Below are positions 2,084 to 56,984 of a stretch of DNA of 64,000 nt, one piece after another. The notes below the pieces were generated by a model. The model did not search any database, was not told where the DNA came from, and saw only the letters and a list, made by a program, of their open reading frames with translations. A program made the position numbers and the translations under genes. The stretch lies in assembly GCA_963555705.1 (NCBI GenBank), contig OY743170.1, positions 33,493,362-33,557,361 of the forward strand, read 5' to 3'. The DNA is from Ligustrum vulgare. Taxonomy: Eukaryota; Streptophyta; Magnoliopsida; Lamiales; Oleaceae. How positions within the stretch are numbered: the stretch's first letter is position 1; every line of letters starts with the position of its first letter.

Positions 2084-2948
2084 TTATGCAAACCACGTAA
2101 CAATTGTAGCTACGCAACCCACAAAATATTGAATCGACCCAAGAACGCCAAAGAACCACGATTTATGGATCCAATTAAAATTAATTGAACCAAGCAACCA
2201 ATACAATCACAGAGATATATTGACCTCTTGATCACAAACAATATTAATTCTCACCGAGATTTGAACAAATAAGATTAACTCGCAAGTTCGAATTGTATTC
2301 AATGAAGAATAGAGTTTGAAAGCATATTTGCCTTACAATAATGTCAATAATAGTCTAACTAGTAATGAAAATTACATCCCTATAAATAGGGTCAAAATCT
2401 GGCTTTAGGAGCTCTAATTTAAGTAGAAAAGAAATTGCTCAAATATGCAAAGAAACAAAAATAACAGAAAATAAGGATTTTATGTGTTTTGATAGTTACG
2501 GCCATAACTACTTCCTTTACGGCCGTAACTGGGTTACTGATTCACACTTATGGGCGTGACACCATGACTTACGGCCGTAAGTCCAAAATTTCCAAAACCC
2601 AGTTTTTGAGCGGTGACTTCATTACGGCCGTAATTTCCAATTCCTCGCATTTTCAATTTCAGCAGTGGACTCGTTACGGCCGTAAGAAATATATGTTACG
2701 GCCGTAACTCTGAAACTTCACAACTTCCTTCGACGGCTTGAATGAGGTTGATTCACTCATCGTCTTGGCTAGGTCCCAACATAGAACTTGTTTCTTTTGA
2801 TGACACGAACATTATTTTGGCCATTATTTCTTGTACTAGCTCGTCTATCGCTTCGTTGGCCCTCCTCGTTTGCAATCGAGTCATCGGTCCTCCTTTGATC
2901 ATCAAGGGATCTTTGCGCAGGCTTGTACTCGTGATCTGGATCACATCA
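2084..2948 (-). repeat. LTR of element A1 (865 bp)
   Basis: On the minus strand it starts TGATGTGATCCAG and ends TTTGCATAA, matching both LTRs of A2 (end TTTGCATCA). It holds about six copies of the palindrome TTACGGCCGTAA or one-base variants (2500-2710). Its first 200 bases stay open in the frame that encodes the pol C-terminus in A2 (63 codons from 2944). A 272-bp piece (2677-2948) recurs at 11135-11406. Confidence 0.85.
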
Positions 2949-3050
2949 ATATCTTACTCACTGAGCAAGTGTATGCTCATCTAAAGTTATCTAACTTTTC
3001 AGGTAACTATTGATATAAGATGGATTGACGGGAATCTTCAGATAGCTTGA
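2949..3050 (+). repeat. Fragment of an older gypsy LTR, first copy
   Basis: About 100 bp identical to 11407-11508, where it abuts element B. Its continuation after B is 19805-20012, which ends in a CGGGGCGTAACA LTR terminus followed by a decayed primer site. The last five bases, CTTGA, match B's target duplication. Confidence 0.6.
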
Positions 3051-3207
3051 TGATAAGTGTATTTTATACACTTATTTCTATCCTAAAAGTATGATTTTAT
3101 ATGTTTGTTTTAGAATATTTGCTATTTATTTTGTGTTATTTGTTATATTTCAGAAATAATCTCAAAGTCGAGAAAACAAAGGAATTGAAGCTAAAATTGA
3201 GCAATTG
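3051..3207 (+). repeat. First 157 bp of LTR B (truncated copy)
   Basis: Starts TGATAAGTGTATTTTATACA and matches 11509-11665 over its full length, then breaks off abruptly into LTR C at 3208. Because it follows the same CTTGA flank as the complete element B, it is a duplicate of that insertion site rather than an independent insertion. Confidence 0.85.
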
Positions 3208-6200
3208 CGATCCAGAATTTTTATGCAATAAATAATTATTTTAATATTTAGAAAATCGTGTCGCTACTATTTCATTTATTATTTTGAAGTTAACGCCGCG
3301 ACGGATTCGTCTAGCCAAGTCAAGAAATATCGAATTTGTTCGATTTTAAATTAAAATCTGAATTTCTAAAATTATATTATTTTAATTATTTATTTAAAGT
3401 ATTATTTTCAAAATCATTTTTCAGTCCAAAATATATCAGTTTTAAATACTTTTCTTGATCGAAGTTAGTCCAATATTTATCAAAATTGTATCATGAACCC
3501 ACATATTTTTCTTCCTTCTTTATTACTCTTTCCACCTCAATATACCATAATCAAAGCATCTTCATCATATCATTACACCTAACAAAGAACACCACTACCA
3601 ATTAATCAAAGCTATCACAATTCAATCCTACCCCATGTGTATACTAAACATAATGATGAATTACCCATATTCCACCCTTTTCATACCTAACTATTCATCA
3701 TTTTTCCTAAATTTATACGTTCTCCATCTCCTCACAATACACACAACAAACTACCAGTCCACTGCCCCAAAATCACTATCACACAACTCAGAGAAATCAA
3801 TTCACAGCTCAATTCATAAAGCCATGGTTCCGCAGCCACTGCCACAAATAAACCACCATCTCCAAATCCAAACCGTCACACCACCACTGTTCCATCGCCA
3901 ATCATCATCATCAATTCTGTTTCCATCTCCAGTCACCAATTCAACCACTGCAGTCACTCGAAAACCACCACCGGAAATCATCACCACCCAATTCTCCTGC
4001 AACTCCATCACCCAAACCAACATTCGCCTGAACCAAACCAACTGCAAGCACAGTCCTACCATCACTGCCGAATCTTAATCTCATCACGCCACCAACCTCC
4101 ATCAGCACCGGCATCATCTCCACACCCAAACCACAACCTCCACCACCATCGCACACGGACACAACCGTCATCAATACAAACCACTACTACCCAATCCCAA
4201 AGTAAAACCCAAAAACTGAGAGGAATCAAAGCCCAGAACCTTACCTTGATTCGACCTAGCTCTGGCCTGATTTTCACCGGTTGTACCGCCGATTCTCCGC
4301 AGCCCAAAACTGCCACTTTTTGCCTCGGCTCAACCATCAATCTTGCACCCAAATTTCACAATAACCTAGTCTACAACACCCCTGCCACTCGCCGCACCTT
4401 ACGCCGGCGATTTCGTCTGCGAAACCGCCGGTCAGACACCATAGTTCACGAAGCCGCCAGCGTCGCTCTCTCCGATCTCTCTCTTGACTAGTTGAAATGG
4501 AAAGAGAGAGAGAGAAAAATATTTTAAATATATTTTGAGTTTCAGAAATTGCAACTTTAGTCCCTGAAGTTTCTAAGTCTTTCAAATCAGCCCTGATTGT
4601 TTTAAAACCTATCAATTCAGTCCTTAAGTTTTTTTAAATGATTTTAATCAGCCCTTTCATTTTCAAAATCTGATCACTTCAGTCCCTGCTGATTTACTTT
4701 TAAGCTCAAATTTCAAAAGTATTCATTTGAATCCCTCAACTATCAAAAGTATCTACTTTAGTCTCTCAACTTTCAAAAGTATTCATTTTAATCCCTGAAC
4801 TTTCAAAAGTATTCATTTTAGTCCCTCAACTTTCAAAACATCAATTTTAGTCCTCAAAATTATAATTTATCATTTTGAACTATATATTCGATAGACTAAA
4901 TTGACTTATTGGCTAAGATGAAGCGTACGGAGAATTTAAAGAAATTGAAGTCATTCCCGCTCAACTTTGCACTCGTCGGATTTGAGGTAGACTCGCACTT
5001 ATTAATTGATTTAAATTATGATTTCATATAAATGTCATGTGACTTGTGAAAGTCAATTTTTAAGAAAAACAAGTATGTTTTTATGAAAGGTAAATATACC
5101 TTATGTTTTTATGAAAAGTAAGTATACCCTATGTTTTTACGATAATGTTTTATATGTTTTGGATCATTGCTATGCACATAAGAATTCTTACCACCTAAGT
5201 TCGGTAGAATTCTGTGTCTCCATAAGTTTATGAGGATTTACCACCTAAGTTCGGTAAAATTCCTGTCTTTCCATATGTTTATGAGGATTTACCACCTAAG
5301 TTCGGTAAAATTCCTGTCGCGTATGTTTATGAGGATTTCGATCCTATCTTATGTTATGATGGAAATGATCCCTATGAATTTCATGAATTATGTTTTGGTA
5401 TACTTACTGTTATTATGATCTTACTGTTATTATGACTTACTACATAAGAATTCTTACCACCTAAGTTCGGTAAAATTCTTATGTTTATGAGGATTTCGAT
5501 ATTATCCTATGTTATGATGAAAACTTACTGTTATTATGATTTTACTGCATAAGAATTCTTGCCACCTAAGTTCGGTAAAGTTCTTGTGTCTATTTATGTT
5601 TATGAGGATTTCAATCCTATCTTATGTTATGCTTTCAAAAGAAATTATGCTTGGCATAATTAAAATGTTTTTATAAGTATATAGTTTTCAAAGAGCTATT
5701 TTCAAAGAGCCTATGATTTGCAAAATATGTCCCGTGCTGTAATGCACAATATGAGTTTTATCAAGAGCAGTTTTATAAAGAAGCTCTATCAATGCCCGTT
5801 TTATAAAGAGCCGGGATTTATGTGTTTAATCATCTTATAAATTAAATTAATTTGCGATGAGTCTACTGAGTATTTCCCCCATGAAATACTCACCCTACTT
5901 TTTAACAGTTTTGCAGATTTCGGAGACGGTGGCGAGCGATGAATGATGGTGGCAATAATCGTTGAACGGTTGAAAGTTTGACGTTAATGATTTCCGTATT
6001 TTCCAAATAATCGAATAATTTAGAGAAGTTCATTTATTTGAGAAATTATGATATTGGCAATTTCTTTACAATATTAATGGTTCGATTTACTATTTCAAAT
6101 GGTTTCATAAATGTTTTCAATTTTAGCGGCCATTACAGTTTATTTAATGTTGCCAAAAATGAATTTCAATTATTTCTTCCGCAAAAATATTATTCGAAAA

Positions 6201-6255
6201 AATTTAGACAGAAAATGACGTAGTGAATCGGGTATACGGAACTCGGGGCGCTACA
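3208..6255 (+). repeat. 5'-truncated gypsy LTR C, first copy
   Basis: Ends in GGAACTCGGGGCGCTACA and is followed by a tRNA-Met primer site at 6259. This supports a plus-strand 5' LTR. A full LTR of this type should open with the complementary TGTAGCGCCCCG; that is absent at 3208, so the start is lost. From 4410 on it is matched by 9289-11134 with equal length (1,846 bp) and only one difference found by eye (5128 C, 10007 T). Several short ORFs at 3635-4615 lie in the LTR and show no protein family. Confidence 0.75.
5180..5600 (+). repeat. Interspersed short repeats inside LTR C
   Basis: Five copies of CCACCTAAGTTCGGTA with flanking AATTC and TTATGAGGATTT, at about 5190, 5240, 5291, 5457 and 5561. 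Spacings are unequal (about 50, 50, 165 and 105 bp). The same five recur in the second LTR copy at 10069-10460. Confidence 0.85.
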
Positions 6256-7140
6256 AGTTGGTATCAGAGCTAGTCTGCGTTTCTGTAGACTGGTAAAATT
6301 TTCAAAAAGAATTTTCAAGAAATATTTTCCATTTTAAGATTTTTATTGATGAAGATTGCCACTGCCATCATTCGTTCCACCAACTCCGAGGTAAAGAAGT
6401 TTATGATGTTTAAAGTTATTTCAGTATTTCGAATACTCATTTTATTGATTTATGAGAAAGAATGAAGAGTATTTCGGATACTTATGATTTATGAGAAATA
6501 AGAATGTATTTCTTCGAAAATATTGATGTTGTTATGCTTTGTCATAACTTATATGCTTTAATGTATGATTATGAGAAATTTTTTAAGAAAGAAAACGAGT
6601 GTTGAGCATAATGGGAACAATATGATTTTATTGAAAATTAAGTAATGGATATTATGTTGAGTAAATGAATTATGCCTCTATGTTGAAGAGAAATTTATTA
6701 TGAAGTTTGGCTTTGTGAATAAATTTTGGGAATATGATTTATGGCATATATTTATAAGTATGAGTAACTTTTGAGCCAATTAAGGTATGGAAGGAAGTGA
6801 TATTGTGATATTGAAAAATATGATTTGAAATTGTTATGTTGAGGAATTATGAATTGAATTATGAGATATTTTGATGATATTGAAGTGTTGGAATCATTTT
6901 CAATATTTTTAGATCGTTGTGATCAAATGTGGAGTTATTTATTATTGTGAGTTATGAAGTATGCTTATGGTTTGGATAAGTCCAAATTACAAGGGAGACT
7001 CTATCCAGAATTTTATCATTTGGAATTAAGAGCATAATATGATAAGCATCCACTAAAGGAATTAAGGTTAGACATGCAAGATCATTTACATCACAAACGA
7101 GATTTAGTAGATGATAGCAGAGATTTTATTATTTTCTCAT
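6256..7140 (+). mobile_element. Leader of element C, no coding capacity seen
   Basis: AT-rich and without a convincing ORF. It includes AAGTCCAAATTACAAGGGAG (about 6979), a motif similar to one at 61760 in the Ulp1-type locus and typical of gypsy leaders. The expected gag-pol never follows: the segment runs into the antisense LOG cassette. Confidence 0.55.
6259..6270 (+). other. Primer binding site of element C
   Basis: TGGTATCAGAGC, a perfect match to the 3' end of initiator tRNA-Met, three bases after the LTR end. Confidence 0.8.
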
Positions 7141-7230
7141 AAGGAGAACACACAAGAGTCACACTGGAAAGGAATACATGAAACACACGAAAGCATAAGA
7201 GAAAAACATGGAAAGATCCTCAGAATGAGA

Positions 7231-7457
7231 GATGTGTTTCCGGAGTAGCCGTATCCTACCACCTCTGATCTTTTGAGGAAATAAAGAAACCTTCAAAGAG
7301 GTGTGTTTCGAGAGTAAGAATACTCCGTAATCTACCACCTGGAATCTTTGAAGTACACACAAGATTTAAACATTAAGGAAATCCTAGTAAATGGAGGGGT
7401 GTCTCGAGAGTGAGAATACTCCGTACTCTACCCCCACCTATTCTAAGATTCAAAGAG
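7231..7457 (-). repeat. Three degenerate ~80-bp repeats just 3' of the LOG gene
   Basis: On the minus strand the core GGTGG..GTAGA.TACGGAGTATTCT.ACTCTCGA.ACAC recurs three times (about 7393-7440, 7298-7345, 7231-7270, in order of decreasing similarity). The unit contains CTCGAGA-like inverted symmetry. The repeats start immediately after the LOG stop codon. Function unknown. Confidence 0.6.
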
Positions 7458-8103
7458 TTAAGTTTACATTAACCGGACTCCATTTTCGCTTGATTCCCCT
7501 TCCTTGCGACCAATCTATCTTAACTCCTGCTGGATCTTGTATTGAGATATATGACTGCAGCTTATCCAGTAGTTCATCAATAGTAGGAGCAGAAATAAGA
7601 AGCCTTCTGGAAAATGGAGAGATGAATCCCTGTTCCACAGCATAATCAAGAAAGGTTAACAAACCATCAAAGAAATTGTTAACATTCAGAAGCCCAATAG
7701 GCTTAGTATGGAGATCTAGTTGAGCCCACGAGGTAATGTTAAAGATTTCTTCTAAGGTACCAAAACCTCCGGGCAGGGCTATAAAGGCATCAGAACCATA
7801 TAGCATACAAGTTATGCGTTCATGGATGGATAAGGTTTGAACTTCATGCCCTCGTGTTTTGCCTGCAACATCTACCAAAGGGACAGGTATGACACCGATT
7901 ACTTTTGATTTCTCTGCAAGAGCAGATTGGGAAACACAACCCATTAGACCACTGCTACCACCCCCATATACAAGAGTGATACCTTTTTCCCCCAGTTTCT
8001 TTCCAAGATCTACAGCCGCTTCTAGATAACCGAAGCCTTTCCCTACTTTTGATCCACAAAATACACAAATAGTTTTGATCTGTCGAAGTTTTGGTGCTTC
8101 CAT
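7450..8103 (-). CDS. LOG-family cytokinin riboside 5'-monophosphate phosphoribohydrolase, single uninterrupted ORF
   Basis: The 217-residue ORF has the lysine-decarboxylase-like Rossmann fold of plant LOG enzymes: a glycine loop GGGSSGLMG at residues 47-55, HERITCM at 94-100 and the signature PGGFGTLEE at 111-119. The family's catalytic Arg (R96) and Glu (E119) are present. LOG enzymes release active cytokinin base from its nucleoside monophosphate in the cytosol. The ORF has no stop or frameshift and ends in VNVNLTL. Most plant LOG genes have several introns; this one has none, which suggests a retrocopy or captured cDNA. It lies antisense inside element C. A CTTTAAATAG TATA-like box lies about 75 bp upstream. 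Whether it is expressed cannot be seen. Confidence 0.88.
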   Translation of the reverse strand: MEAPKLRQIKTICVFCGSKVGKGFGYLEAAVDLGKKLGEKGITLVYGGGSSGLMGCVSQSALAEKSKVIGVIPVPLVDVAGKTRGHEVQTLSIHERITCMLYGSDAFIALPGGFGTLEEIFNITSWAQLDLHTKPIGLLNVNNFFDGLLTFLDYAVEQGFISPFSRRLLISAPTIDELLDKLQSYISIQDPAGVKIDWSQGRGIKRKWSPVNVNLTL

Positions 8104-8167
8104 CTTTGATAGTAAAGAAAGGAAAACTTACGAAGAAGATGTGATTTTGGGATGCCTGAACTATGAA

Positions 8168-8182
8168 ATATGTTTGGCTATT
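8168..8182 (-). promoter_or_regulatory. TATA-like element upstream of the LOG ORF
   Basis: On the minus strand GGCTTTAAATAGCC stands about 70-80 bp before the LOG ATG, with a purine-rich leader between. The neighbouring gene has a similar CTTTTAAATAG box, so both genes may share promoter ancestry. No transcription data. Confidence 0.45.
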
Positions 8183-8403
8183 TAAAGCCGGAAAAATTTA
8201 CTGTTTTTGATTGATTCTGAAAAAGTAAAGATTTACTTTTGACAAAATCAGCCCACTTTTGAATATTTTTATCGTATCGAGGCTGTCACCTTTCGGTGAT
8301 TTAATATTTTATTTCCAGCTTTATCAAACCTCGAGAAAAGGAAAATATATTTTATTTTCAAAACGCGTGAAAGAAAGCAGCAAAATATTTTAAAAGATTT
8401 ACC

Positions 8404-8970
8404 TTATATCATTGCTGAACTGCCAGAAGCCTCATTTTGTAAAACAGACTGGCAAACAGGATCTTTCGATATTATATTTTGGAGACTATAACGATTTTTG
8501 TCCTCGTTAAACTGAGCGTATAAGGAGAGAAGTTCACGTTGTACATAACCACTTGGGTGCGTCTCAAGAGTCAGTCGAATATCATCCAAAGACTCCTTAC
8601 TCAGTCCACCCTTTATGAATTCGATTTTATCATCCCGATTAGTAGAAGAATATCCTACTGATTTGCAACGAGTATTACAGTTCCAACGAGCACATTTGTA
8701 GCAACCACCCAGTCTTTTTGCTCTTCGTTTCTTTGCAAACGTGCTTTTGCCTAAACCAGGCATGTGCTTTGGAAATGTTGATGGTAATTCACCAGATAGT
8801 CGAACCTTTGCTTCTATCAACCAGCGAACATCTTCTGGAACATCATGAGCCATTAGCAACCTCAATCTTTCGAGCCTTATTTTATAGATCTTTCTCAGAT
8901 CATTCATAGGAAGACTGGAATAATATTTGCGAATGTTAGAAAGGATGATATCCATTGTTTGATGATTCAA
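8404..8970 (-). CDS. Putative endogenised betaflexivirus-like cysteine-rich nucleic-acid-binding protein
   Basis: A 188-residue intact ORF. After an N-terminal region of about 70 residues without recognised family come an arginine/lysine stretch KKRRAKR (80-86) and four cysteines at 90, 93, 98 and 102. The order basic patch then small zinc-finger-like cysteine cluster, and the residues around it, resemble the small nucleic-acid-binding proteins encoded at the 3' end of Betaflexiviridae (vitivirus, carlavirus and relatives). Those are shorter, roughly 90-140 residues. Met6 is an alternative start. It is co-oriented with the LOG gene 300 bp downstream and lies antisense in element C. A host zinc-finger protein is the main alternative. 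Viral ancestry is inferred from motif layout only. Confidence 0.5.
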   Translation of the reverse strand: MNHQTMDIILSNIRKYYSSLPMNDLRKIYKIRLERLRLLMAHDVPEDVRWLIEAKVRLSGELPSTFPKHMPGLGKSTFAKKRRAKRLGGCYKCARWNCNTRCKSVGYSSTNRDDKIEFIKGGLSKESLDDIRLTLETHPSGYVQRELLSLYAQFNEDKNRYSLQNIISKDPVCQSVLQNEASGSSAMI

Positions 8971-8982
8971 CCTCTTCCCAGC

Positions 8983-8998
8983 ATGAACTATTTAAAAG
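8983..8998 (-). promoter_or_regulatory. TATA-like element upstream of the cysteine-rich ORF
   Basis: On the minus strand CGCTTTTAAATAGTTC lies about 15-25 bp before the first ATG. That is short for a TATA-to-ATG distance, so the true start may be Met6 or the box may be fortuitous. Confidence 0.35.
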
Positions 8999-9288
8999 CG
9001 CAAAGGATCTGAGTGAATCCGCGTGATGTTGTGACCAGCAAGAAAGCGCAGGATTATTTTAATGAAAAGAGGAGACAAGAAGTAATGCGCTGTTAAATTT
9101 TATCGATAAAGGAGATTTGATTGGAGATTTGGAATATTTTCTTGGATTATGGGTACTGATATTTTGTTTTAATAATGATAATCTTGGTATAGTGTGATGA
9201 TACGTGGAAAGTAAAATGAGTACCGTATTGAATCAGAATTCATACGTATATACAAGTGAAAGAAATACTTTGCAGGAAATATGGTGAC

Positions 9289-11134
9289 ATTTCGTCTGCG
9301 AAACCGCCGGTCAGACACCATAGTTCACGAAGCCGCCAGCGTCGCTCTCTCCGATCTCTCTCTTGACTAGTTGAAATGGAAAGAGAGAGAGAGAAAAATA
9401 TTTTAAATATATTTTGAGTTTCAGAAATTGCAACTTTAGTCCCTGAAGTTTCTAAGTCTTTCAAATCAGCCCTGATTGTTTTAAAACCTATCAATTCAGT
9501 CCTTAAGTTTTTTTAAATGATTTTAATCAGCCCTTTCATTTTCAAAATCTGATCACTTCAGTCCCTGCTGATTTACTTTTAAGCTCAAATTTCAAAAGTA
9601 TTCATTTGAATCCCTCAACTATCAAAAGTATCTACTTTAGTCTCTCAACTTTCAAAAGTATTCATTTTAATCCCTGAACTTTCAAAAGTATTCATTTTAG
9701 TCCCTCAACTTTCAAAACATCAATTTTAGTCCTCAAAATTATAATTTATCATTTTGAACTATATATTCGATAGACTAAATTGACTTATTGGCTAAGATGA
9801 AGCGTACGGAGAATTTAAAGAAATTGAAGTCATTCCCGCTCAACTTTGCACTCGTCGGATTTGAGGTAGACTCGCACTTATTAATTGATTTAAATTATGA
9901 TTTCATATAAATGTCATGTGACTTGTGAAAGTCAATTTTTAAGAAAAACAAGTATGTTTTTATGAAAGGTAAATATACCTTATGTTTTTATGAAAAGTAA
10001 GTATACTCTATGTTTTTACGATAATGTTTTATATGTTTTGGATCATTGCTATGCACATAAGAATTCTTACCACCTAAGTTCGGTAGAATTCTGTGTCTCC
10101 ATAAGTTTATGAGGATTTACCACCTAAGTTCGGTAAAATTCCTGTCTTTCCATATGTTTATGAGGATTTACCACCTAAGTTCGGTAAAATTCCTGTCGCG
10201 TATGTTTATGAGGATTTCGATCCTATCTTATGTTATGATGGAAATGATCCCTATGAATTTCATGAATTATGTTTTGGTATACTTACTGTTATTATGATCT
10301 TACTGTTATTATGACTTACTACATAAGAATTCTTACCACCTAAGTTCGGTAAAATTCTTATGTTTATGAGGATTTCGATATTATCCTATGTTATGATGAA
10401 AACTTACTGTTATTATGATTTTACTGCATAAGAATTCTTGCCACCTAAGTTCGGTAAAGTTCTTGTGTCTATTTATGTTTATGAGGATTTCAATCCTATC
10501 TTATGTTATGCTTTCAAAAGAAATTATGCTTGGCATAATTAAAATGTTTTTATAAGTATATAGTTTTCAAAGAGCTATTTTCAAAGAGCCTATGATTTGC
10601 AAAATATGTCCCGTGCTGTAATGCACAATATGAGTTTTATCAAGAGCAGTTTTATAAAGAAGCTCTATCAATGCCCGTTTTATAAAGAGCCGGGATTTAT
10701 GTGTTTAATCATCTTATAAATTAAATTAATTTGCGATGAGTCTACTGAGTATTTCCCCCATGAAATACTCACCCTACTTTTTAACAGTTTTGCAGATTTC
10801 GGAGACGGTGGCGAGCGATGAATGATGGTGGCAATAATCGTTGAACGGTTGAAAGTTTGACGTTAATGATTTCCGTATTTTCCAAATAATCGAATAATTT
10901 AGAGAAGTTCATTTATTTGAGAAATTATGATATTGGCAATTTCTTTACAATATTAATGGTTCGATTTACTATTTCAAATGGTTTCATAAATGTTTTCAAT
11001 TTTAGCGGCCATTACAGTTTATTTAATGTTGCCAAAAATGAATTTCAATTATTTCTTCCGCAAAAATATTATTCGAAAAAATTTAGACAGAAAATGACGT
11101 AGTGAATCGGGTATACGGAACTCGGGGCGCTACA
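9289..11134 (+). repeat. LTR C, second copy, more heavily 5'-truncated
   Basis: Matches 4410-6255 without length change and ends in the same GGGGCGCTACA terminus. It joins the LOG cassette at 9288/9289 and resumes LTR A sequence (CGGCCGTAAG) at 11135. As the downstream LTR of element C it lacks the region corresponding to 3208-4409. Confidence 0.85.
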
Positions 11135-11406
11135 CGGCCGTAAGAAATATATGTTACGGCCGTAACTCTGAAACTTCACAACTTCCTTCGACGGCTTGAA
11201 TGAGGTTGATTCACTCGTCGTCTTGGCTAGGTCCCAACATAGAACTTGTTTCTTTTGATGACACGAACATTATTTTGGCCATTATTTCTTGTACTAGCTC
11301 GTCTATCGCTTCGTTGGCCCTCCTCGTTTGCAATCGAGTCATCGGTCCTCCTTTGATCATCAAGGGATCTTTGCGCAGGCTTGTACTCGTGATCTGGATC
11401 ACATCA
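11135..11406 (-). repeat. Second copy of the LTR A terminal piece
   Basis: Corresponds to 2677-2948 at a constant offset of 8458; one difference seen (2759 A, 11217 G). It includes the 63-codon LTR-encoded tail of family A pol on the minus strand (11211-11402). Confidence 0.85.
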
Positions 11407-11508
11407 ATATCTTACTCACTGAGCAAGTGTATGCTCATCTAAAGTTATCTAACTTTTCAGGTAACTATTGATATAAGATGGATTGACGGGAATCTTCAGA
11501 TAGCTTGA
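11407..11508 (+). repeat. Older gypsy LTR, left part, interrupted by element B
   Basis: Contains the CTCACTGAGCAAGTGTATGC block typical of large plant gypsy LTRs. It ends in CTTGA, the left copy of B's target duplication. The rest resumes at 19805. Confidence 0.6.
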
Positions 11509-12911
11509 TGATAAGTGTATTTTATACACTTATTTCTATCCTAAAAGTATGATTTTATATGTTTGTTTTAGAATATTTGCTATTTATTTTGTGTTATTTG
11601 TTATATTTCAGAAATAATCTCAAAGTCGAGAAAACAAAGGAATTGAAGCTAAAATTGAGCAATTGGATGTAAAACGGGTCAAAGTGAGCAAATCAAGAAT
11701 TGATGCAGCCAATCAAATAGTTAATTTGAAGAAGAAATCGAATTTGGAAGAAATCAGAAGTTCAGGGGCCAAATTGCAATAATCAGAAGTTGGAGGACCA
11801 GCTATGAAATTAAAAGTCAGGGACTAACTTGCACAGCCGGAAGAAAGATGAAGTCGCGATCGCTGGTTACACACCAAGCGATCGCGAGATGGTGGTAATT
11901 TATAACCCGAGAGTTATAAGGTCTTCCACGCGATCGCCGGCATTATGCCTGCGCGATCGCGCGCTTGTCGACTGGGCCGCAGATCAGATTTTTCTCGCGA
12001 TTTTTGACAGGCTTTGGGCTTTTTGACCTAGGTTTTCTCCAAAACCTATATATACCAGACCTAAGGCACGAAATTAGGGTTCCCAATTCATTGAAGAGAG
12101 GCCAAAACGCTGTCGAAGTGTCGAGGGATCCATGCCACGCCAAGAACACAATTGAAGAACGAAGATCAAGGGCATGAATAGGGTGACATCTATCCATTCC
12201 TTTTGTGATTTCTATTCAATTATGTATCTAGGCTAGATTTTCAATGTTAGAATTGTGATGAAGCAATTATTTTCGGATGTTATGTATTGATTATCATTTA
12301 ATTTCATAATTCATGGGTTTGAGCAATTGATTTATACTTTTTTTTATCATGCAATTACTTGATCACTACTTGTATGAATTTAGGTTGTGATTTCTTAAGT
12401 TCGAAAGATTGAGATTTCATTAGACTTGTATCAATTGCCACAAAGTCCGATAGGGGATAGAAATATACCCCTATGCTTTGTGTTATCTGCTATAGTATTC
12501 ACTAAATTTGTAATGCTTTTCTATACATTTAGATTCGTCATAGAAATATAGTCGGGTTGTGTATAGAAATAGATGTTGATTCTTGTCCGAAAGGGAGTCT
12601 TGACAATATTAGGAATATAGATTTTCAAAACCTCATGAATTATTGTTAGATGTTTAAATTAATGCATAATTAATGGAATCAATGTGGATTCTCAATTCTA
12701 GCATGTTTTTGTCATATTTTCTCTAAATCAAATTTCCTCGTTCTTTCTATTTTAATTTTCAAAATCAAAATTCTCAAACTCAAACAACTTTCTTGTTCCA
12801 GTTAAGGTAGTAGTCTAAAATATGATTTAAAAAAATCCCTGTGGGAACGATATTCGGACTTAAAATCCACTTTATTACTTTCGCGACCCGTGCACTTGCG
12901 GAGCGTCGTCA
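11509..12911 (+). repeat. 5' LTR of element B (1403 bp)
   Basis: TGATAAGTG to GAGCGTCGTCA. It contains four GCGATCGC palindromes or near-copies at 11857-11960 and a TATATATACC box at about 12049-12058, a likely promoter. Compared with the 3' LTR it has 16 extra bases near 11735-11755. Confidence 0.9.
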
Positions 12912-12932: not shown

Positions 12933-13082
12933 GGATTGTTCTTTAAATTTATTTTTAGATTAATTTCACTAATTCGGACTTTTACTTGTTTTATTTTATT
13001 CTATTTTATTTATTTTTATCTTAGGATTTTTATTTTTAATTTTAGTTTAGTCACTAGTTTCTCAAATTTCTTGTAGTTGTAT

Positions 13083-14795
13083 ATGCTACGTTCGAAAAAC
13101 GGGGATCTTTTTGAAGCTGACTCGGAAATAGAACGTACATTACATCGTAGATTAAGAGAGGTTAGAGAACTAGATAAATCAAAAACCCAAAAAAATCAAA
13201 TGGCGAACAACAATAATCTTCTCCCCCCTGCTGATCTAATAAATGAAGATGACATGTTGGTTGGTGACTTCATGACACCTCAGGTGGTTCAAAGTCAATC
13301 CAGCATAGTCTATCCACCATTTGGGCAGGCAAACTTCCAATTGAAAACCAATGTCATCAGCATGTTCCAAAACGGACATCAATTTCATGGGAGACCTGAT
13401 GAAAACCCGCACACACATGTTTCTAAATTTTTAGACATGTGCCAACACTTTCAATATCAGGGCGTATCTGATGATGCTATCAGACTTAGGTTATTCCCTT
13501 ACACTCTAAGAGATAGAGCTGTTGAGTGGTTGGATTCTCGCCCAGCTGCGAGTATAACCACTTGGAACGACTTGATCCAAAAGTTTTGCACCAAATTCAT
13601 GCCTCCAGCTAAGGTTGCCAAACTGAGATATGACATCACCATGTTTCAGCAACAAGATGCTGAATCCTTTGATGATGCATGGAACAGATTTAAGGGCATG
13701 CTGAGGAAGTGTCCAAACCATGGGATCAAACGAGGTGATCAAGTGAAGTGCTTCTATGAAGGACTACTTCCACATTTTAAAAACATGGTTGATTCCTCAT
13801 CAAATGGTGCGTTAAGCACAAAGAGCATCGGGCAGGCATTGGAGCTCTTCGAGAGGATAGCAAATACAAATGCCATGTGGGGATCAGACAGGGTTGTTCC
13901 AAAGAAGGCATCAGGAGTCTATGAAGTGGATGCTTACACTGCCATATCAGCAAAAATAGACTCTTTGGCTGCGAAAGTGGAGAGCATAGCACTGGTGAGT
14001 CATTCATCAAAAAGTGCTAAAATGACTTGTGAAGAGTGTGGTGCAAACCACGCCACTATAGATTGCCCTATTCTGGCTTGTCCATTGGAGCAAGTTGACT
14101 ATTTACAAGGAGGTCAACGCCAGAATAATCCATACTCAAATACCTACAATCCAGGATGGCGCAATCATCCTAAATTTTCTTGGAAAGATCACTCTAATGG
14201 ACACATTGCGCCTAATTTCAACACTGAAGAGAGAAAGCCTGCATTGGAAGAAATGCTTGGGAAGTTTGTGGAAAGGACAGAACAGTTCATGTCTAGAACA
14301 GATCAGTTTATGAGAAAAACTGAAACCACAATTCAAAATCAACAGGCTTCAATCAAAAATCTGGAGACTTAAGTGGGACAGATAGCACAGTTGATCACAG
14401 CTAGAGCTCCGGGTACATTACCTGCAAATACTGAGGTAAACCCAAAAGAACAACTAATGGCTATAAGTGTAGTGCAACATGAGATAAATGCTATCACTAC
14501 GCGTAGTGGTGTGCAACTTCCTGAGATTCATGCTAAAAAGCCAGCTGGAGTTCCTGAAAAAGTTGTGGAGAATGTTGAGAAGATGGATGAAAAGGAAGAT
14601 GACCATGAGGTGAAATCAAAAATTAAGCCTCACGAGTCTCCTATTCCATTTCCACAAAGGCTGAAGAAAACAAGAGAGGATAAGCAGTTTAATAAATTTG
14701 TGAATATGCTTAGAAAACTGCACATAAATATTCCTTTCTTGGAAGCCATCACACAGATCCCAAGTTACGCCAAGCTGCTAAAAAAGAATGTCTAG
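13083..14795 (+). pseudogene. Gag of element B, interrupted by one stop
   Basis: The first ATG of the frame is at 13083. The Retrotrans_gag core spans about 13370-13850, followed by a CEECGANHATIDC-like zinc-binding cluster near 14029-14068. The C-terminal linker is repetitive and polar (FVERTEQFMSRTDQF). A TAA at 14370-14372 interrupts a frame that continues cleanly to 14795, so it is a single nonsense change, probably from CAA. After that the frame is lost near 14780-14795 and protease follows in another frame. Gag would form virus-like particles for the element RNA. Confidence 0.9.
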
Positions 14796-18400: not shown

Positions 18401-18411
18401 TTTGGGGGTGT
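15406..18411 (+). mobile_element. Non-coding 3' half of element B
   Basis: No RT, RNase H, integrase or other recognisable ORF in six frames. It holds the GGGAGGCAACCCA block (15455) common after pol in Athila/Tat-like elements. Other landmarks are a CGTGCGGTCGCACGG palindrome (15828), two tandem ~110-190 bp repeats with AAGTCTGAGGGGTTC and GGGAGCTGCCGACCTAAAGC (about 17505-17620 and 17685-17800), and a GAGGACGAACAATAG motif just before the PPT. Confidence 0.75.
18400..18411 (+). other. Polypurine tract of element B
   Basis: GTTTGGGGGTGT directly before the 3' LTR. A near-identical TAGTTTGGGGGTG occurs internally near 16934 and another near 17340. Confidence 0.7.
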
Positions 18412-19799
18412 TGATAAGTGTATTTTATACACTTATTTCTATCCTAAAAGTATGATTTTATATGTTTGTTTTAGAATATTTGCTATTTATTTTGTGTTAT
18501 TTGTTATATTTCAGAAATAATCTCAAAGTCGAGAAAACAAAGGAATTGAAGCTAAAATTGAGCAATTGGATGTAAAACGGGTCAAAGTGAGCAAATCAAG
18601 AATTGATGCAGCCAATCAAATAGTTAATTTGAAGAAGAAATCAGAAGTTCAGGGGCCAAATTGCAATAATCAGAAGTTGGAGGACCAGCTGTGAAATTAA
18701 AAGTCAGGGACTAACTTGCACAGCCGGAAGAAAGATGAAGTCGCGATCGCTGGTTACACACCAAGCGATCGCGAGATGGTGGTAATTTATAACCCGAGAG
18801 TTATAAGGTCTTCCACGCGATCGCCGGCATTATGCCTGCGCGATCGCGCGCTTGTCCGACTGGGCCGCAGATCAGATTTTTCTCGCGATTTTTGACAGGC
18901 TTTGGGCTTTTTGACCTAGGTTTTCTCCAAAACCTATATATACCAGACCTAAGGCACGAAACTAGGGTTCCCAATTCATTGAAGAGAGGCCAAAATGCTG
19001 TCGAAGTGTCGAGGGATCCATGCCACGCCAAGAACACAATTGAAGAACGAAGATCAAGGGCATGAATAGGGTGACATCTATCCATTCCGTTTGTGATTTC
19101 TATTCAATTATGTATCTAGGCTAGATTTTCAATGTTAGAATTGTGATGAAGCAATTATTTTCGAATTTTATGTATTGATTATCATTTAATTTCATAATTC
19201 ATGGGTTTGAGCAATTGATTTATACTTTTTTTTATCATGCAATTACTTGATCACTAGTTGTATGAATTTAGGTTGTGATTTCTTAAGTTCGAAAGATTGA
19301 GATTTCATTAGACTTGTATCAATTGCCACAAAGTCCGATAGGGGATAGAAATATACCCCTATACTTTGTGTTATCTGCTATAGTATTCACTAAATTTGTA
19401 ATGCTTTTCTATACATTTAGATTCGTCATAGAAATATAGTCGGGTTGTATATAGAAATAGATGTTGATTCTTGTCCGAAAGGGAGTCTTGACAATATTAG
19501 GAATATAGATTTTCAAAACCTCATGAATTATTATTAGATGTTTAAATTAATGCATAATTAATGGAATAAATGTGGATTCTCAATTCTAGCATGTTTTTGT
19601 CATATTTTATCTAAATCAAATTTCCTCGTTCTTTCTATTTTAATTTTCAAAATCAAAATTCTCAAACTCAAACAACTTTCTTGTTCCGGTTAAGGTAGTA
19701 GTCTAAAATATGATTTAAAACAATCCCTGTGGGAACGATATTCGGACTTAAAATCTACTTTATTAGTTGCGCGACCCGTGCACTTGCGGAGCGTCGTCA
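18412..19799 (+). repeat. 3' LTR of element B (1388 bp)
   Basis: Same termini as the 5' LTR; shorter by 16 bp and longer by one base near 18855. Substitutions are mostly transitions. Confidence 0.9.
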
Positions 19800-28387: not shown

Positions 28388-29192
28388 TGATGTGATCCAG
28401 ACCACGGATACAAGCTCGCACAAAGATCCGTTGAAGATCCGAGGAGCGCCGATGACTCAATTGCAGACAAAGAGGGCCAAGGAAGCAATGGACAAATTAG
28501 TTCAAGAAACAATGGCCAAAACAATGTCCGTGTCATCGAAAGATGCAAGTTCCATGTTGGGACTGAGCCAAAACGACGAGTGGATCAACCTCATTCAAAC
28601 CGACGAAGAAAATTGCAATTTTTCAAAATTCACGGCCGTAACATATGGGAGCTCACGGCCGTAACATTGCCTCGGATCAAAAACAAGATTTTCAGAAATT
28701 TGGCTTACGGCCGTAAAAATAGTATCACGACCGTAATGTTGGAACAGAAAGGGATTTACGGCCGTAAAGTGAAGGTTCACGACCGTAAATAATTATACGT
28801 GTGAATTTATGAATTTTATTTATTTCCTTATTTTTTGGTATTTGTTTCCTAGTTTAATTAAAACACTTAACCTAGTTTTGACCCTATTTATAGGGATGTA
28901 ATTTTCATTATTCTTAGACAACTTTGATATTAATATTGAGAGGCAAATTGCTTTCACAATCCTTATTCTTCATTGAATAAAATCCGAACTTGCGAGTTTA
29001 ATTCTTGTTTGTTCAAATCTTGGGTGAGATTTATTTTCATTGTGATCAAGAGGTCAACATATCAATTGATTGTGTTGGTTGTTTGGTTCAATTAATTTGA
29101 ATCAATCTCTAAATCGTGATTCTTTGACGTTCTTGGGACGATTCCAATAATTTGTGGGTTGCGTAGCTACAATTATTACGTGGTTTGCATCA
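28388..29192 (+). repeat. 5' LTR of element A2 (805 bp)
   Basis: Contains six TTACGGCCGTAA-type palindromes at 28633-28790, a CCTATTTATAGGG box at 28882-28894 (likely TATA) and the LTR-embedded pol tail (open to 28664). Confidence 0.9.
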
Positions 29193-29194
29193 TC

Positions 29195-29205
29195 TGGTAT
29201 CAGAG
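29195..29205 (+). other. Primer binding site of element A2
   Basis: TGGTATCAGAG two bases after the LTR end; complementary to initiator tRNA-Met. Confidence 0.8.
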
Positions 29206-29763
29206 TTTAGGCTCCAAAAATCAAGGTTATATCTTTTGTTTTCTTGAGTCGTTCTTTAATTTTGTTCTTCGTGTTCTTCCAGTTCTTGAGTCTTTAATCC
29301 AAAAAGTGTCCAAAAAAAATTCAATAGTCGTTATTTCCTTCGTTTGTTACCCAAATTAAATTTCGTTTGTTTCGTCTTTCTCGTAGTTGAATTTTCGAGA
29401 AATCTGAAAAAAAAAATAAAAAATTCCAAGCTCCAGAAAAAAAATAGCTGTTATTTGATTTCAAGAAATATATTCTTGACTCAGTCCTAGTTTCCATAAA
29501 AAGTGTCAAGTTCTATATAGAGTCAAATTCAATTCTCTAAAGGTCTTCTTTGAGTTTTCCAACAATTCATTACTATTCACTCATATTTGATTTGAATCAA
29601 TCGGGTTTAAACTTGCTTGAGTTCAGATTCGTTCCTTAAAGCAATTGGGGTGAAAGCCATTGAGTGGAAAAAGGCAGAGAGGTGAGATCAATAGAGGGTA
29701 AAAGCCAAACTTGAGTGATACACGAGTGAAATACACGTGAGGCATATAATATTTAGTTTTAGG

Positions 29764-32700
29764 ATGTCTGAACAATCTTCTACTACAAAAAACAACGATC
29801 GAGCCAACATGACGGAAGAGATGGTACAACGGGTTGAGCGGTTGTTTGGGGATGTGTTAGGTAGGTTAGAAAGGCTTGAGCAATCTCGAGAAGTGCCTAA
29901 TGCCCGTAGGCAAGGTGGGCAAGGTCGTAGAATAGAGGGGATCGATGAGAATAAGAAGGTAGTGATCTTGACGATAGAGCAATTTTGGATAGAGTGGTTA
30001 GGCATGAGAGAAGGGATAGAGATCTTGGTGGCGATAGAATGGATGGTAGTATGAGCAACATCAAAATGACAATTCCGTCATTCAAGGGAAGGAGTGATCC
30101 GGAAGCATACCTAGAATGGAAAAAGAAGATGGAATTAATTTTCAATTGCTACACTTATTCGGAAGAGAAAAAGGTTAAGGTAGCTGTACTCGAATTCTCC
30201 GATTACGCTATTACTTGGTGGGATCAATTGGTGACTTCTAGGAGGAAGAATCGCGAGAGACTCGTTAGTACTTGGGATGAATTAAAAGCTATCATGAGAA
30301 AGATGTTCGTTCCTAGTCATTACCATCGGGAGCTTCATCAAAAGTTACAAAGTCTGTACCAAGGATCAAAGAGTGTGGAGGATTATCATAAGGAGATGGA
30401 GATGTTGATGATTAGAGCTAATGTAGACGAGGATAGGGAGGCTACGATGACTCGATTTTTGAATGGGTTGAATAGGGATATAGCTAATATGGTTGAACTG
30501 CAACATTATTTGGAGATGGAGGATATGTTGCATATGGCTATAAAGGTGGAGAAACAAATAAAGAAAAAGGGAACAGCAAGGTATCAATCTGGTTCTAATT
30601 CTTCTTGGAAGCCGAAGTGGGATAGTAAAGGAGATGAGACTGTTTCTAAAGGAAAGTTTGAAGCACCAAAAGGGAAGTTTGAGGCACCAAAAGGGAAGGA
30701 GGAACAAGCTAGTAAATTCGTACCTAAAGGGGAACCTCAACCATCTAGGAGTAGAGACATTCAATGCTTCAAATGTTTAGGGAGAGGACATGTGGCATCT
30801 CAATGTCCTAATAGGCGAGTGATACTTGTGAGGAAGGATAGAGCCATGGAGAGTGATAGTGAGGAAGAGGATTATAGAGATATGCCGGCGTTGGAGGAAG
30901 TATGCGATGATGAGGATGTGTTATCCGGGGAGCATGGCGAATTATTAGTGGCAAGGCGAGCTCTTAGTGCCCAAATCAACACGGATGATTTGGAACAACA
31001 ACGGGAGAACATATTCCATACACGATGTCGTATTAATAACAAGGTATGTAGTATGATTATTGATGGTGGTAGGTGCACTAACGTCGCTAGTACTATACTT
31101 GTTGAAAAATTAGGATTACCTTTGTTAAAACATCCTAAACCTTATAGGCTTCAATGGTTAAATGATAGTGGAGAAATTAAGGTGAATAGGAGGGTGTTGG
31201 TGAATTTTTCTATTGGTAGCTATGTGGATGAAGTTATGTGCGATGTGGTACCTATGCATGCCGGGCACATTTTGTTGGGTAGGCCTTGGCAATATGATAG
31301 GAAGGTCACGCATGATGGGTATAAAAATAGGTATAGCTTTACCAAAGGGGGGAAAAACCATTACACTTGCACCATTGACGCCGTCACAAGTGTATGAAGA
31401 TCAAATAAAACTGAAAAATGATGAAGAAAAAAGAGTAAGGGAAAATGATAGAAAGAGAGTTGAGGCCACGACCTCAGAAAAAGGAGAGGAAAAGAGAGTT
31501 GGAGCCACGACTCCAGAAAAAGGAGAGGCGAGAGAAAAAATGAGTGTTGGGGTACATACCTCAGAAAAAAGAGAGGGAGCGAAGAGTGCCAGAAAAGAAA
31601 GAAAAATGAGTTTCTACGCAAAAAGGAGTGAAGTCAATAAAGCATTTATGGAAAAACGACCAATGGTCCTTTTTTTGTACAAGAAATCATTCCTTGCATT
31701 TGATGAAACTAACAAATCCCTCCCTAGTTTGGCTATTTCTTTATTGCGGGAATTTGACGATATATTTCCCGATGACATACCTAGTGGGTTACCACCCATT
31801 CGAGGTATTGAACATCAAATTGATTTTGTACCTGGAGCAGTCATTCCGAACCGCCCCGCTTATCGAAGTAACCCCGAGGAGACGAAGGAGCTCCAAGGGC
31901 AAGTGGAGGACTTGATGAGCAAAGGGTATATAAGGGAAAGTATGAGTTCATGTGTCGTCCCCGTGTTACTTGTGCCCAAAAAGGACTGGACTTGGAGAAT
32001 GTGTGTCGATTGTAGGGCCATCAACAACATAACGGTAAAGTATCGTCATCCTATTCCTAGGTTAGATGATATGTTGGATGAATTGCATGGCTCTAGCATA
32101 TTTAGTAAAATTGACCTTAAGAGTGGTTATCATCAAATTCGAATGAAAGAAGGAGATGAGTGGAAAACTGCTTTTAAAACTAAGTATGGTCTGTATGAAT
32201 GGTTAGTAATGCCTTTTGGACTTACTAATGCACCTAGCACATTTATGCGTTTAATGAATCATGTTTTACGTGCCTTTATCGATAAATTCGTTGTAGTTTA
32301 CTTCGATGATATCTTGATATATAGTAAAACTTTGAATGAGCATGTGGAGCATGTTAGGTGTGTGCTTGTGGTTTTAAGACAAGAGCAACTTTTTGCTAAT
32401 TTTAAAAAGTGTGATTTTTGCATGGAAAAGGTTGTGTTTCTTGGCTATGTGGTTAGTGCTAAAGGAATAGAAGTAGATGAAGAAAAAATCAAAGCTATCA
32501 AACAATGTCCAACACCTAAAAGTATAACTGAGATTAGGAGTTTTCATGGCTTGGCTAGTTTTTATAGGTGCTTTGTTAAAAATTTTAGCATGATTGCCGC
32601 ACCACTCACAAAAATTGTCAAAAAAAGTGTAGGTTTTAAAGGGGGTAGAACAGGAGCATGCATTTGAGACTATTAAAAATATGTTGTGTGAAGCACCGGT

Positions 32701-34642
32701 TTTATCACTTCCTAACTCTGACAAGGCTTTTGAGATTGAATGTGATGCCTCAGGGCTAGGCATTGGAGCTGTTTTAATGCAGGATCAAAGGCCAATCGCC
32801 TATTTTAGTGAAAAACTAAAAGGGGCTGCACTTAATTACCCCACATATGATAAGGAGTTATACTCACTTGTGCGCGCTTTGGAGACATGGCAACATTACT
32901 TGTGGCCACGGGAGTTCCTGATACACACTGATCATGAATCCTTGAAGCATTTGAGGGGTCAAGCTAAGCTGAGTAAGAGACATGCAAGGTGGGTAGAATT
33001 CATCGAAATATTTTCCTATGTCATCCGATACAAATAAGGTAAGGAAAATGTGGTGGCAGATGCATTGTCTCGAAGGTATGTTCTTTTAAATTCTTTAAAT
33101 TCTAAATTACTTGGATTTGAATACATTAAGGACATGTATGTTAGTGATCCGGACTTTTCTAGTATTTATGATTCATGTGGTAAAGGGGCTGTGGATAAAT
33201 TCTTTAAACATGATGATTATTTATTCCGAGAAAATAAATTGTGTGTCCCTAGGTGTTCAATGAGGGAGTTACTTGTGAGAGAGGCCCATAGTGGAGGTCT
33301 AATGGGTCATTTTGGAATTAAAAAGACCATCGAAATCCTAAGTGAACATTTCTATTGGCCTAAGATGAAAATTGATGTGGTTCGGGTTTGTAGTAGATGC
33401 ATTACTTGCAAGAAGGAAAAATCTAGGATTAAACCTCATGGATTATATATGCCTTTACCCGTACCTAGTGAACCTTGGGTCGATATCTCTATAGATTTTG
33501 TTTTGGGATTACCTAGGACTAAGAAGGAAAGAGATTCAATTTTTGTGGTAGTAGATCGCTTTAGTAAAATGGCACATTTCATACCATGCCACAAAACTGA
33601 TGATGCTACTAACATAGCTGAAATTTTCTTTCGGGAAGTCGTACGCTTACATGGGGTTCCTAAAAGTATTGTCTCGGATAGGGATGTTAAGTTCCTTAGT
33701 CATTTTTGGAGGGTCTTGTGGAACAAATTAGGTACAAAACTACTTTTCTCTACAACTTGTCACCCACAGACCGATGGACAAACCGAGGTAGTAAATAGGA
33801 CAATGATTCAATTGTTGCGCACGATAATCAATAAAAATCTGAAAAATTGGGAAGAGTGTTTACCATTTATTGAATTTGCATATAATAGGGCTATACATTC
33901 TACTACTTCTTATTCACCATTTGAAATTGTTATGGTTTTAATCCGCTAACACTATTGGATTTAATTCCTTTACCTGTGAATGAACGTAGTAGTTTAGATG
34001 GAAAGAAAAAGGCTGAGATGGTTAAAGCACTCCACGACAAGGTGAGGTTGGCGATTGAAAAGAAAAATGAACATTATGCTTCGCAGGCTAACAAAGGAAG
34101 AAAAGGCGTCATATTTGAACCCGGTGATTGGGTTTGGGTACATTTGAGAAAGGAGCGGTTTCCATAACAACGCAAGTCAAAGTTACAACCGCGAGGAGAT
34201 GGTCCATTCCAAGTGATTGAAAGGATCAACAACAATGCCTATAAATAAGATCTTCCTGGTGAGTATAATGTTTCGGCTTCATTTAATGTTTCTGATCTAT
34301 CTCTGTTTGATGCAGGTATAGATTCGAGGTCGAATCCTTTCGAAGAGGGAGGGGATGATGTGATCCAGACCACGGATACAAGCCCGCACAAAGATCCGTT
34401 GAAGATCCGAGGAGGGCCGATGACTCGATTGCAAAAAAAGAGGGCCAAGGAAGCAATGGACAAATTAGTTCAAGAAACAATGGCCAAAACAATGTTCGTG
34501 TCATCGAAAGATGCAAGTTTCACGGCCGTAAATAATTATACGCGTGAATTTATGAATTTTATTTATTTCCTTATTTTTTGGTATTTGTTTCCTAGTTTAA
34601 TTAAAACACTTAACCTAGTTTTGACCCTATTTATAGGGATGT
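29764..34642 (+). pseudogene. gag-pol polyprotein of element A2 (pseudogene)
   Basis: Domains in order: Gag core about 30090-30560; zinc knuckle CFKCLGRGHVASQC 30768-30809; protease IIDGGRCTN near 31056, ending ILLGRPW 31268; RT about 31890-32460 with YFDDILIYS at 32300-32326; RNase H 32735-33030 ([13 protein letters not shown]); integrase zinc finger and core 33280-33930 with conserved DFV...D...E residues; then a C-terminal tail GPMTRLQKKRAKEA inside the LTR (about 34418-34460). Defects: frameshifts near 29955, 31350 (G/A run), 32640 and 33928, TAA at 33035-33037, 34165-34167 and 34246-34248. The Ser of the usual protease GGSCTN is Arg here. No complete protein can be made. Confidence 0.93.
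34341..34355 (+). other. Polypurine tract of element A2
   Basis: CGAAGAGGGAGGGGA immediately before the 3' LTR; it is also translated as part of the pol tail. Confidence 0.8.
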
Positions 34643-34935
34643 AATTTTCATTATTCTTAGACAACTTTGATATTAATATTGAGAGGCAAATTGCTTTCAC
34701 AATCTTTATTCTTCATTGAATAAAATCCGAACTTGCGAGTTTAATTCTTGTTTGTTCAAATCTTGGGTGAGATTTATTTTCATTGTGATCAAGAGGTCAA
34801 CATATCAATTGATTGTGTTGGTTGTTTGGTTCAATTAATTTGAATCAATCTCTAAATCGTGATTCTTTGGCGTTCTTGGGACGATTCCAATAATTTGTGG
34901 GTTGTGTAGCTACAATTGCTACCTGGTTTGCATCA
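34356..34935 (+). repeat. 3' LTR of element A2 with 225-bp internal deletion
   Basis: Aligned to the 5' LTR it jumps from AGATGCAAGTT directly to CACGGCCGTAAATAATTA, removing five of the six palindromes. Breakpoints lie in short similar sequence (TTcCA/TTCA), consistent with slippage or recombination between palindromes. Confidence 0.88.
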
Positions 34936-48605: not shown

Positions 48606-48771
48606 TTATTTGAGGAATTAGTGGCTAGATCCTTCGATTCATTTTTCAAAGGGGTTTTTAGTTAAATAGGTTTGGTATGTAATAAGTTTAGTAAAATAGA
48701 TCCCTCAGTTGAAATGTCAAAATTATCCTTAATGAAAAGGACTGTTTAATTTGTAGGGTATATCCCCAAAC

Positions 48772-49182
48772 TTAGTCAGGTTGATTTAATTCAGTATTTC
48801 TGGTTATATTTATATTTTTTAATCTTTTAAGTTCTTCTAAAAATGTTCTATATTGTAATAATTTTTCAAATGTTTTAGGATGATCATTTTTATTTATATA
48901 TCCTAACATTATTCCTTCTGATACTTCTTCTTCTATATCTTCGTATTCTTCTATAATTTTATGAACCGTATTTATATTTTTTGCTGTTTCAACAGAATTA
49001 AATTCTATTCTATTTAGGATTGCATAGTCAATATCTTTGTATATTTCTTTTAGTTTAGTTTGTCCAACAGAATGTATATTTTTAGACTTTTCAACAATAG
49101 TCGATAAAAATGAAATTTCTTTATCATTTAAATATAGTTTATATTCACAGTTATTAGATGTTGATGTTTGTAAAGTATTCAT
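48772..49182 (-). CDS. Pararetrovirus-linked ORF e (136 aa, unknown)
   Basis: The last ORF of the viral block. Charged, helical, no known motif; ends about 10 bases before a TTTGGGGATATACCC stretch where viral sequence seems to stop. Starts three bases after the ORF d stop. Confidence 0.5.
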   Translation of the reverse strand: MNTLQTSTSNNCEYKLYLNDKEISFLSTIVEKSKNIHSVGQTKLKEIYKDIDYAILNRIEFNSVETAKNINTVHKIIEEYEDIEEEVSEGIMLGYINKNDHPKTFEKLLQYRTFLEELKRLKNINITRNTELNQPD

Positions 49183-49185
49183 AGA

Positions 49186-49407: not shown

Positions 49408-49413
49408 TTAGGT

Positions 49414-49626: not shown

Positions 49627-49648
49627 TATAAATACAAAGATAAATAAT

Positions 49649-56983: not shown

Positions 56984-56984
56984 T

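Follow-up and report, generated by a model that had tools for sequence, protein, structure and literature searches.

A viral-type cysteine-rich protein gene and a LOG-type gene form a recurrent, probably accessory pair among the extra open reading frames of plant gypsy-type retrotransposons

Introduction

Small-RNA silencing restrains plant retrotransposons, but what the extra open reading frames (ORFs) in them do is an open question. A locus of Ligustrum vulgare (Oleaceae) brings this question into focus, as two intact ORFs, one for a LOG-type cytokinin-activation enzyme and one for a cysteine-rich protein (CRP) of viral type, lie there between the long terminal repeats (LTRs) of a retroelement, hereafter element C. 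Did this element newly capture a host gene and a viral gene, as proposed in a first-pass annotation of the sequence, or does it carry a pair of genes that belongs to plant retroelements more widely? The stretch analysed, referred to below as the window, comprises 64,000 nt of the forward strand of contig OY743170.1 (positions 33,493,362-33,557,361, assembly GCA_963555705.1), and all positions given are relative to it.

Steinbauerova and colleagues are said to have found two Athila-like elements with similarity to LOGL4. A YgdH/LOG domain has since been described in gypsy LTR elements of two Citrus species and, in unfiltered data, of Populus trichocarpa, in agreement with Steinbauerova et al. 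2011 (PMC9289625), and the presence of a LOG gene in a gypsy element, one part of the combination that the first-pass annotation held to be new, was thus already on record. Antisense additional ORFs are known from the elements Grande, RIRE2 and Retand (PMC11963269, PMC7264820), and Tekay and Athila elements possess extra ORFs bearing nuclear localization signals (NLS), about which a role in silencing has been the subject of speculation (PMC11728184). The CRPs of plant viruses have been described as silencing suppressors endowed with an NLS and a zinc finger, one of which induces hyperplasia (PMC12172455).

Results

Element C and the elements around it

The window is plant DNA in which retroelements are nested in one another. 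Element C is inserted into the left LTR of an Athila-type neighbour, whose LTRs (approximately 11506-12911 and 18409-19799) are 97.5% alike, whose gag gene lies at 13077-14372 and whose left LTR is followed by the primer-binding site (PBS) TGGCGCCGTTGCC. Elsewhere in the window, a gypsy-type element (28388-34935) contains gag-like, reverse transcriptase and integrase-like ORFs, of which the reverse transcriptase was confirmed by Pfam, and an inverted relative of it, 83% alike, occupies the left edge (1-2948). A run of long ORFs on the minus strand (48700-58000) has the appearance of an endogenous pararetrovirus: a reverse transcriptase/RNase H is encoded at 52059-53936 and PF22909, a coat domain of caulimoviruses, at 55270-56649.

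Element C itself is delimited by repeats on the plus strand. The portion of the left LTR common to both copies (4410-6255) ends in ...GCGCTACA, and the right LTR (9289-11134), recognized by repeat comparison, is truncated at its 5′ end; as inferred from the TG...CA ends, the left LTR probably has a first 1.2 kb (3206-4409) that begins with TGCGATCC and is missing from the right copy. The left LTR is followed by a PBS-like sequence, TGGTATCAGAGC (6259-6270, plus strand), which we take to be of the initiator tRNA-Met type. Near-identical LTRs, with one mismatch in 1,846 bp, and a PBS after the 5′ LTR identify element C as an LTR retrotransposon. If sites change at some 1e-8 substitutions a year each, the single difference corresponds to an age of tens of thousands of years. 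Because the element is so young, the intactness of its ORFs amid mutated neighbours, which had seemed telling, is by itself no evidence of selection.

No short target-site duplication was found at element C; instead of the expected 4-6 bp, its flanks consist of a 532-bp duplicated target stretch (2676-3207 and 11134-11665, plus strand, by repeat comparison) with one mismatch. Nor was a polypurine tract (PPT) found adjoining the 3′ LTR, the closest purine run stopping some 210 bp short of the right LTR. Besides CRP and LOG, the interior of about 3 kb contains no ORF of at least 120 residues and gave no match to the pol region of a second CRP-bearing retroelement, contig L001, described below; no gag-pol was seen. 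Because about 1.2 kb of the likely left LTR has no counterpart in the right LTR, a gag-pol may once have lain between the cassette and the 3′ LTR and have been deleted since. Inspection by eye revealed, 3′ of LOG (7160-7440, minus strand), an imperfect repeat of about 45 nt (AGGTGG...TACGG...) in three copies, each perhaps a short hairpin. The copies showed no excess folding energy, with z values of 0.03 and -0.29 for the two strands; Rfam matched the cassette twice, each time under the curated score and once (E 2.1) over part of these repeats, and the motif TACGGNNTACTCCG, tried for a likeness of L001 to the repeats, is absent from the window.

Two intact genes on the minus strand

The ORFs, their co-orientation on the minus strand between the LTRs and the identity of their products proved to be as first described, with the CRP gene preceding the LOG gene. 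The LOG gene (7450-8103), delineated by its ORF, Pfam, a PDB profile and diagnostic residues, is intronless and codes for a LOG-type cytokinin riboside 5′-monophosphate phosphoribohydrolase of 217 aa, which matches PF03641 (Lysine_decarbox) above the Pfam cut-off (E 1.3e-33) and the Arabidopsis At2g37210 structure 2a33 (E 1.6e-57), presumably that of LOG3. It retains R96, E119 and the PGGxGTxxE motif, the sequence marks of LOG phosphoribohydrolases, and falls within the wider subfamily TIGR00730 (163 bits, cut-off 96); with the NCBIfam equivalog for bacterial and archaeal LOG, a model that serves bacterial and archaeal annotation, it reached 109 of the 300 bits required. Judged from its sequence, the protein is probably a cytokinin-activating enzyme. 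It ends in a tail (7453-7503, minus strand) of basic residues followed by VNVNLTL, a loose form of the strict LxLxL of its relatives, and residues 201-217 are disordered in the structure model (pLDDT <50).

The CRP gene (8404-8955, minus strand), supported by its ORF, Pfam and relatives, codes for 183 aa when read from its ATG; the ORF of 188 aa in the ORF list begins at a TTG upstream. The protein exceeds the Pfam cut-offs for both PF05515 (Viral_NABP, E 4.1e-7) and PF01623 (Carla_C4, E 5.1e-6), and combines the zinc-finger motif CYKCARWNCNTRC (residues 85-97, 8665-8703) with the basic, NLS-like motif KKRRAKRL (residues 75-82, 8710-8733). As had been reported, a similar box precedes each gene: TTTAAATAG was found by motif search at 8178-8186, 75-83 nt before the ATG of LOG, and at 8988-8996, 33-41 nt before that of CRP. 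These are its two occurrences in the 64 kb, both on the minus strand, where 3.3 are expected by chance, and their placement is notable but post hoc. As evidence of transcription the boxes are weak, because that of CRP is so near the ATG that almost no leader is left.

A flexivirus-type protein in a plant retroelement

The CRP search returned 352 relatives at E 0.001, the best 120 of which were examined; the named sources among these are six eudicot species or hybrids of five genera (Orobanche, Striga, Populus, Xanthoceras, and Acer). Viral_NABP was matched at E 0.01 by 29 and Carla_C4 by 28 of 30 members scanned out of 121, and pattern counts over all 121 gave a KKRRAK-like basic block in 112 and a CxxC...C...C finger in 108. 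It is thus to viral nucleic-acid-binding protein (NABP) families, not to an ordinary host zinc-finger family, that CRP and its relatives belong, as had been suspected, and at the level of sequence CRP is homologous to the zinc-finger, NLS-bearing NABP and RNA-silencing suppressor of flexiviruses. A structure model with 99 of the 121 CRPs as input was weak (pLDDT 70.2, pTM 0.36); with it, a Foldseek search of BFVD gave 26 viral matches, none at E 0.001, and the top four (E 0.26-2.0) bear the annotation RNA silencing suppressor or nucleic acid binding protein and come from Grapevine Kizil Sapak virus, Fig latent virus 1, red clover vein mosaic virus and sweet potato chlorotic fleck virus. A PDB profile search with CRP yielded just two matches (E 0.36 and 0.92). 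Scans of viral contigs with CRP, with P0123, a close relative of the LOG protein, and with the CRP alignment revealed no relative, and none of 13 loci from a DNA pattern scan encodes CRP or LOG by tblastn. The genomic seat of this CRP is a plant retroelement, not a flexivirus genome.

One further CRP locus could be placed. L001 is a contig of 3,330 bp labelled as part of a Nomurabacteria MAG, which we take for plant contamination of that MAG. It contains the terminal part of a retrotransposon pol, integrase included (PF00665, E 2.3e-16). About 200 bp behind the integrase and in sense lies a CRP gene whose product is 67% identical to the window CRP over residues 1-171 and scores above the Viral_NABP cut-off and slightly below that of Carla_C4 (20.4 vs 20.9 bits). 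From its position behind the integrase, CRP is an env-position extra gene of another retroelement; this element is presumably Athila-like, an assignment for which we rely on integrase features and a PPT-like run. Antisense placement as a typical feature is not supported, for among the loci placed it was seen in element C only. Five LOG queries (tblastn) found no match in L001, which extends 983 bp past CRP.

Two details of this contig were noted by eye. The segment 1640-1800 is pyrimidine-rich and ends in TGCAG about 140 nt before the ATG of CRP, like the 3′ splice site of a spliced env-type message. At 2345-2420, the CRP frame continues after its stop as RAFKPLLDVKLEEDVSHNHNYL, near to the C-terminal extension WRSFKPFLDVKPKEDVSHNHNYNLSLSL of P0091, which hints that the sequence past the stop is conserved.

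Selection was examined on CRP. Between the window and L001 copies (NG86, 181 codons), dN is 0.285 and dS 1.365, the latter near saturation, and the resulting dN/dS of 0.21 fits purifying selection since the two copies parted.

A group of LOG proteins with an added tail

The LOG search returned 7,230 matches, the best 120 of which were examined. Reevesia pubescens accounts for 38 of these, and a count by eye gave 16 chromosome labels among them, a spread as for a mobile family. In a quick tree, for which no root was inferred, 44 of the 121 LOGs of window type were separated from 17 host LOGs (16 of 120, and 1ydh) by a single branch (length 0.91, SH-aLRT 100); the clustering of the 44 is partly a matter of choice, because they were picked from matches to the window LOG. 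At midpoint rooting, two members of the window-type group, P0214 and P0239, both devoid of LxLxL, fall on the host side. Linkage, copy number and the literature suggest that this group lies in retroelements, as a group and not member by member.

What sets the group apart is its C-terminus. The strict LxLxL occurs in 92 of the 121 window-type LOGs and the loose form in 101, vs none of the 120 host LOGs, and a run of at least two K/R within the last 20 residues is present in 109/121 vs 6/120. Tails of LxLxL type resemble EAR motifs, which recruit TOPLESS. Of 119 window-type LOGs, a set without the double-domain proteins P0124 and P0125, 102 have the full complement of the chosen catalytic residues; the canonical LOGs of host plants are conserved. 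There is, in short, a probably retroelement-associated LOG group with an added basic and LxLxL-type tail.

Recurrence of the pair

The two-gene block, which the first-pass annotation had recommended seeking elsewhere, does recur. Among the best 120 of the 352 CRP matches, three Orobanche gene models (P0019, P0020, and P0024) fuse CRP and LOG domains; R96 and a motif glycine are lost in P0020 and P0024, R96 lies outside the coverage in P0019, and the tail is kept in P0019 and P0024. When 63 CRP and 39 LOG contigs of at least 1,250 bp, drawn from the best 120 matches of each search, were compared by size (the remaining matches being shorter, chromosome-sized or without a contig), five sizes coincided to the base pair (8723, 4511, 2128, 1558, and 1514), vs 0.68 expected (jitter P 0.0006); the named sources differ in the 1514 pair. 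Populus, Xanthoceras and Orobanche gave matches in both searches, and Reevesia pubescens gave none among the best 120 of the 352 CRP matches.

Since the CRP-LOG pair occurs in other plants, it is unlikely that element C captured the two genes afresh from a host and a virus. The pair is a real, recurrent accessory gene pair among the extra ORFs of gypsy-type elements.

Discussion

The reading that we favour, with a probability of roughly 0.55, is that plant gypsy-type retrotransposons carry CRP and LOG as an accessory module, found here in a young element without gag-pol, and that the two genes serve the element both against silencing and in cells that divide. This reading is supported by the homology of both proteins, the recurrence of the pair, the purifying selection on CRP, the retention of the catalytic residues and the conserved tail, which is disordered in the model. 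The module would work as follows. Each gene would be transcribed from its own promoter, for which the TTTAAATAG boxes are candidates; CRP would enter the nucleus and, as viral CRPs do, dampen the small-RNA silencing of the element or alter transcription; LOG would free active cytokinin and so favour dividing cells, through which new copies could reach the germ line, and its tail may also recruit corepressors of the TOPLESS type. Taken together, these activities would benefit the element.

A possible account of the locus, to which we give appreciably less than even odds, is that element C took CRP-LOG from the 3′ region of another element, by template switching or nested insertion, and has no use for it. 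The PBS of element C differs from that of the neighbouring Athila-type element, the cassette is antisense, the right LTR is truncated, and the young age would account for the intact ORFs. This account is nonetheless confined to the present copy, and it must be set against the conservation of both proteins in relatives and the purifying selection on CRP.

The position of the L001 gene after the integrase, which is env-like, raises the question of whether CRP is instead a structural or packaging factor, that is, an env-position nucleic-acid-binding helper and not a silencing suppressor, with LOG a separate accessory gene that is sometimes its neighbour. A rod-shaped virus has a CRP that associates with its virions (PMC11213338), and LOG and CRP were not always seen together; the pair nevertheless recurs, and basic block plus zinc finger is the plan of the viral suppressors, so that we consider this explanation unlikely.

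Still less probable is that LOG is chiefly a scaffold in the nucleus, to which its tail would draw corepressors, enzyme activity being secondary. The tail is missing from host LOGs and disordered in the model, and two Orobanche copies keep it, one of them with catalytic residues lost; these copies are gene models only, however, one catalytically altered model is without the tail, and the chosen catalytic residues are complete in most of the group. That the two are ordinary or domesticated host genes lying by chance between LTRs is very hard to believe, for although LOG genes exist in host plants, where the canonical ones are conserved, the present group is distant from the 17 host LOGs sampled, CRP stands behind an integrase in L001 and one species harbours many dispersed relatives.

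If CRP and LOG are such an accessory module, it can be compared with several known systems. The elements described in PMC9289625 likewise combine a LOG-type domain with a gypsy-type element, and Populus is also among the LOG matches obtained here; the available part of that report mentions neither a viral-type CRP partner nor the tail, and the cassette described here differs in being antisense in an element without gag-pol (PMC9289625). Grande, RIRE2 and Retand share antisense ORFs within a gypsy-type element and nucleic-acid-binding candidates (PMC11963269, PMC7264820), whereas those of Retand, located between pol and 3′ LTR, code for TRP28 and a small number of other domains, CRP and LOG not being among those named in the text available (PMC11963269, PMC7264820). 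With the CRP/NABP of flexiviruses (carlavirus, allexivirus, mandarivirus), the retroelement CRP has in common the zinc finger, the basic NLS-like motif and both Pfam families, and it differs in that both ends of the protein are conserved in a form of their own and in being borne by a retroelement (PMC12172455). VANDAL elements encode additional proteins that counter silencing, which would make them a parallel if CRP acts as we suggest, although VANDAL is a DNA transposon and is set beside CRP by description (PMC11728184).

Earlier surveys differ in what they could have detected. A survey of extra ORFs was limited to those of at least 250 codons (PMC6317226) and should therefore miss CRP and LOG, with their 183 and 217 aa; a consensus survey by CDD domains names LOG/YgdH, and viral NABP does not figure in its section on it (PMC9289625). 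LOG, YgdH and cytokinin are absent from the accessible portion of a 2026 review of gene capture (PMC13317346). Our literature search, which included few subscription papers, found neither a CRP in a retroelement nor the CRP-LOG pair nor the tail on record.

A wider proposal, which we offer tentatively and at less than even odds, is that many eudicot retrotransposons carry a virus-style effector module that selection has kept, in which a silencing suppressor of flexivirus type is joined by a cytokinin-activating enzyme that works in the nucleus and recruits corepressors by its tail. The element would then behave like a pathogen inside the cell, disarming silencing and driving host cells to divide, and the module would have been founded by gene flow between an RNA virus and a retrotransposon, in either direction. 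A betaflexivirus replicase in cucumber has been described as one plus-strand case (PMC3136472). CRP, of a known viral suppressor type, and LOG, with its unusual tail, are testable candidates for anti-silencing and for the control of the host cell. If this reading is true, retrotransposons may bear virus-style tools for the manipulation of their host.
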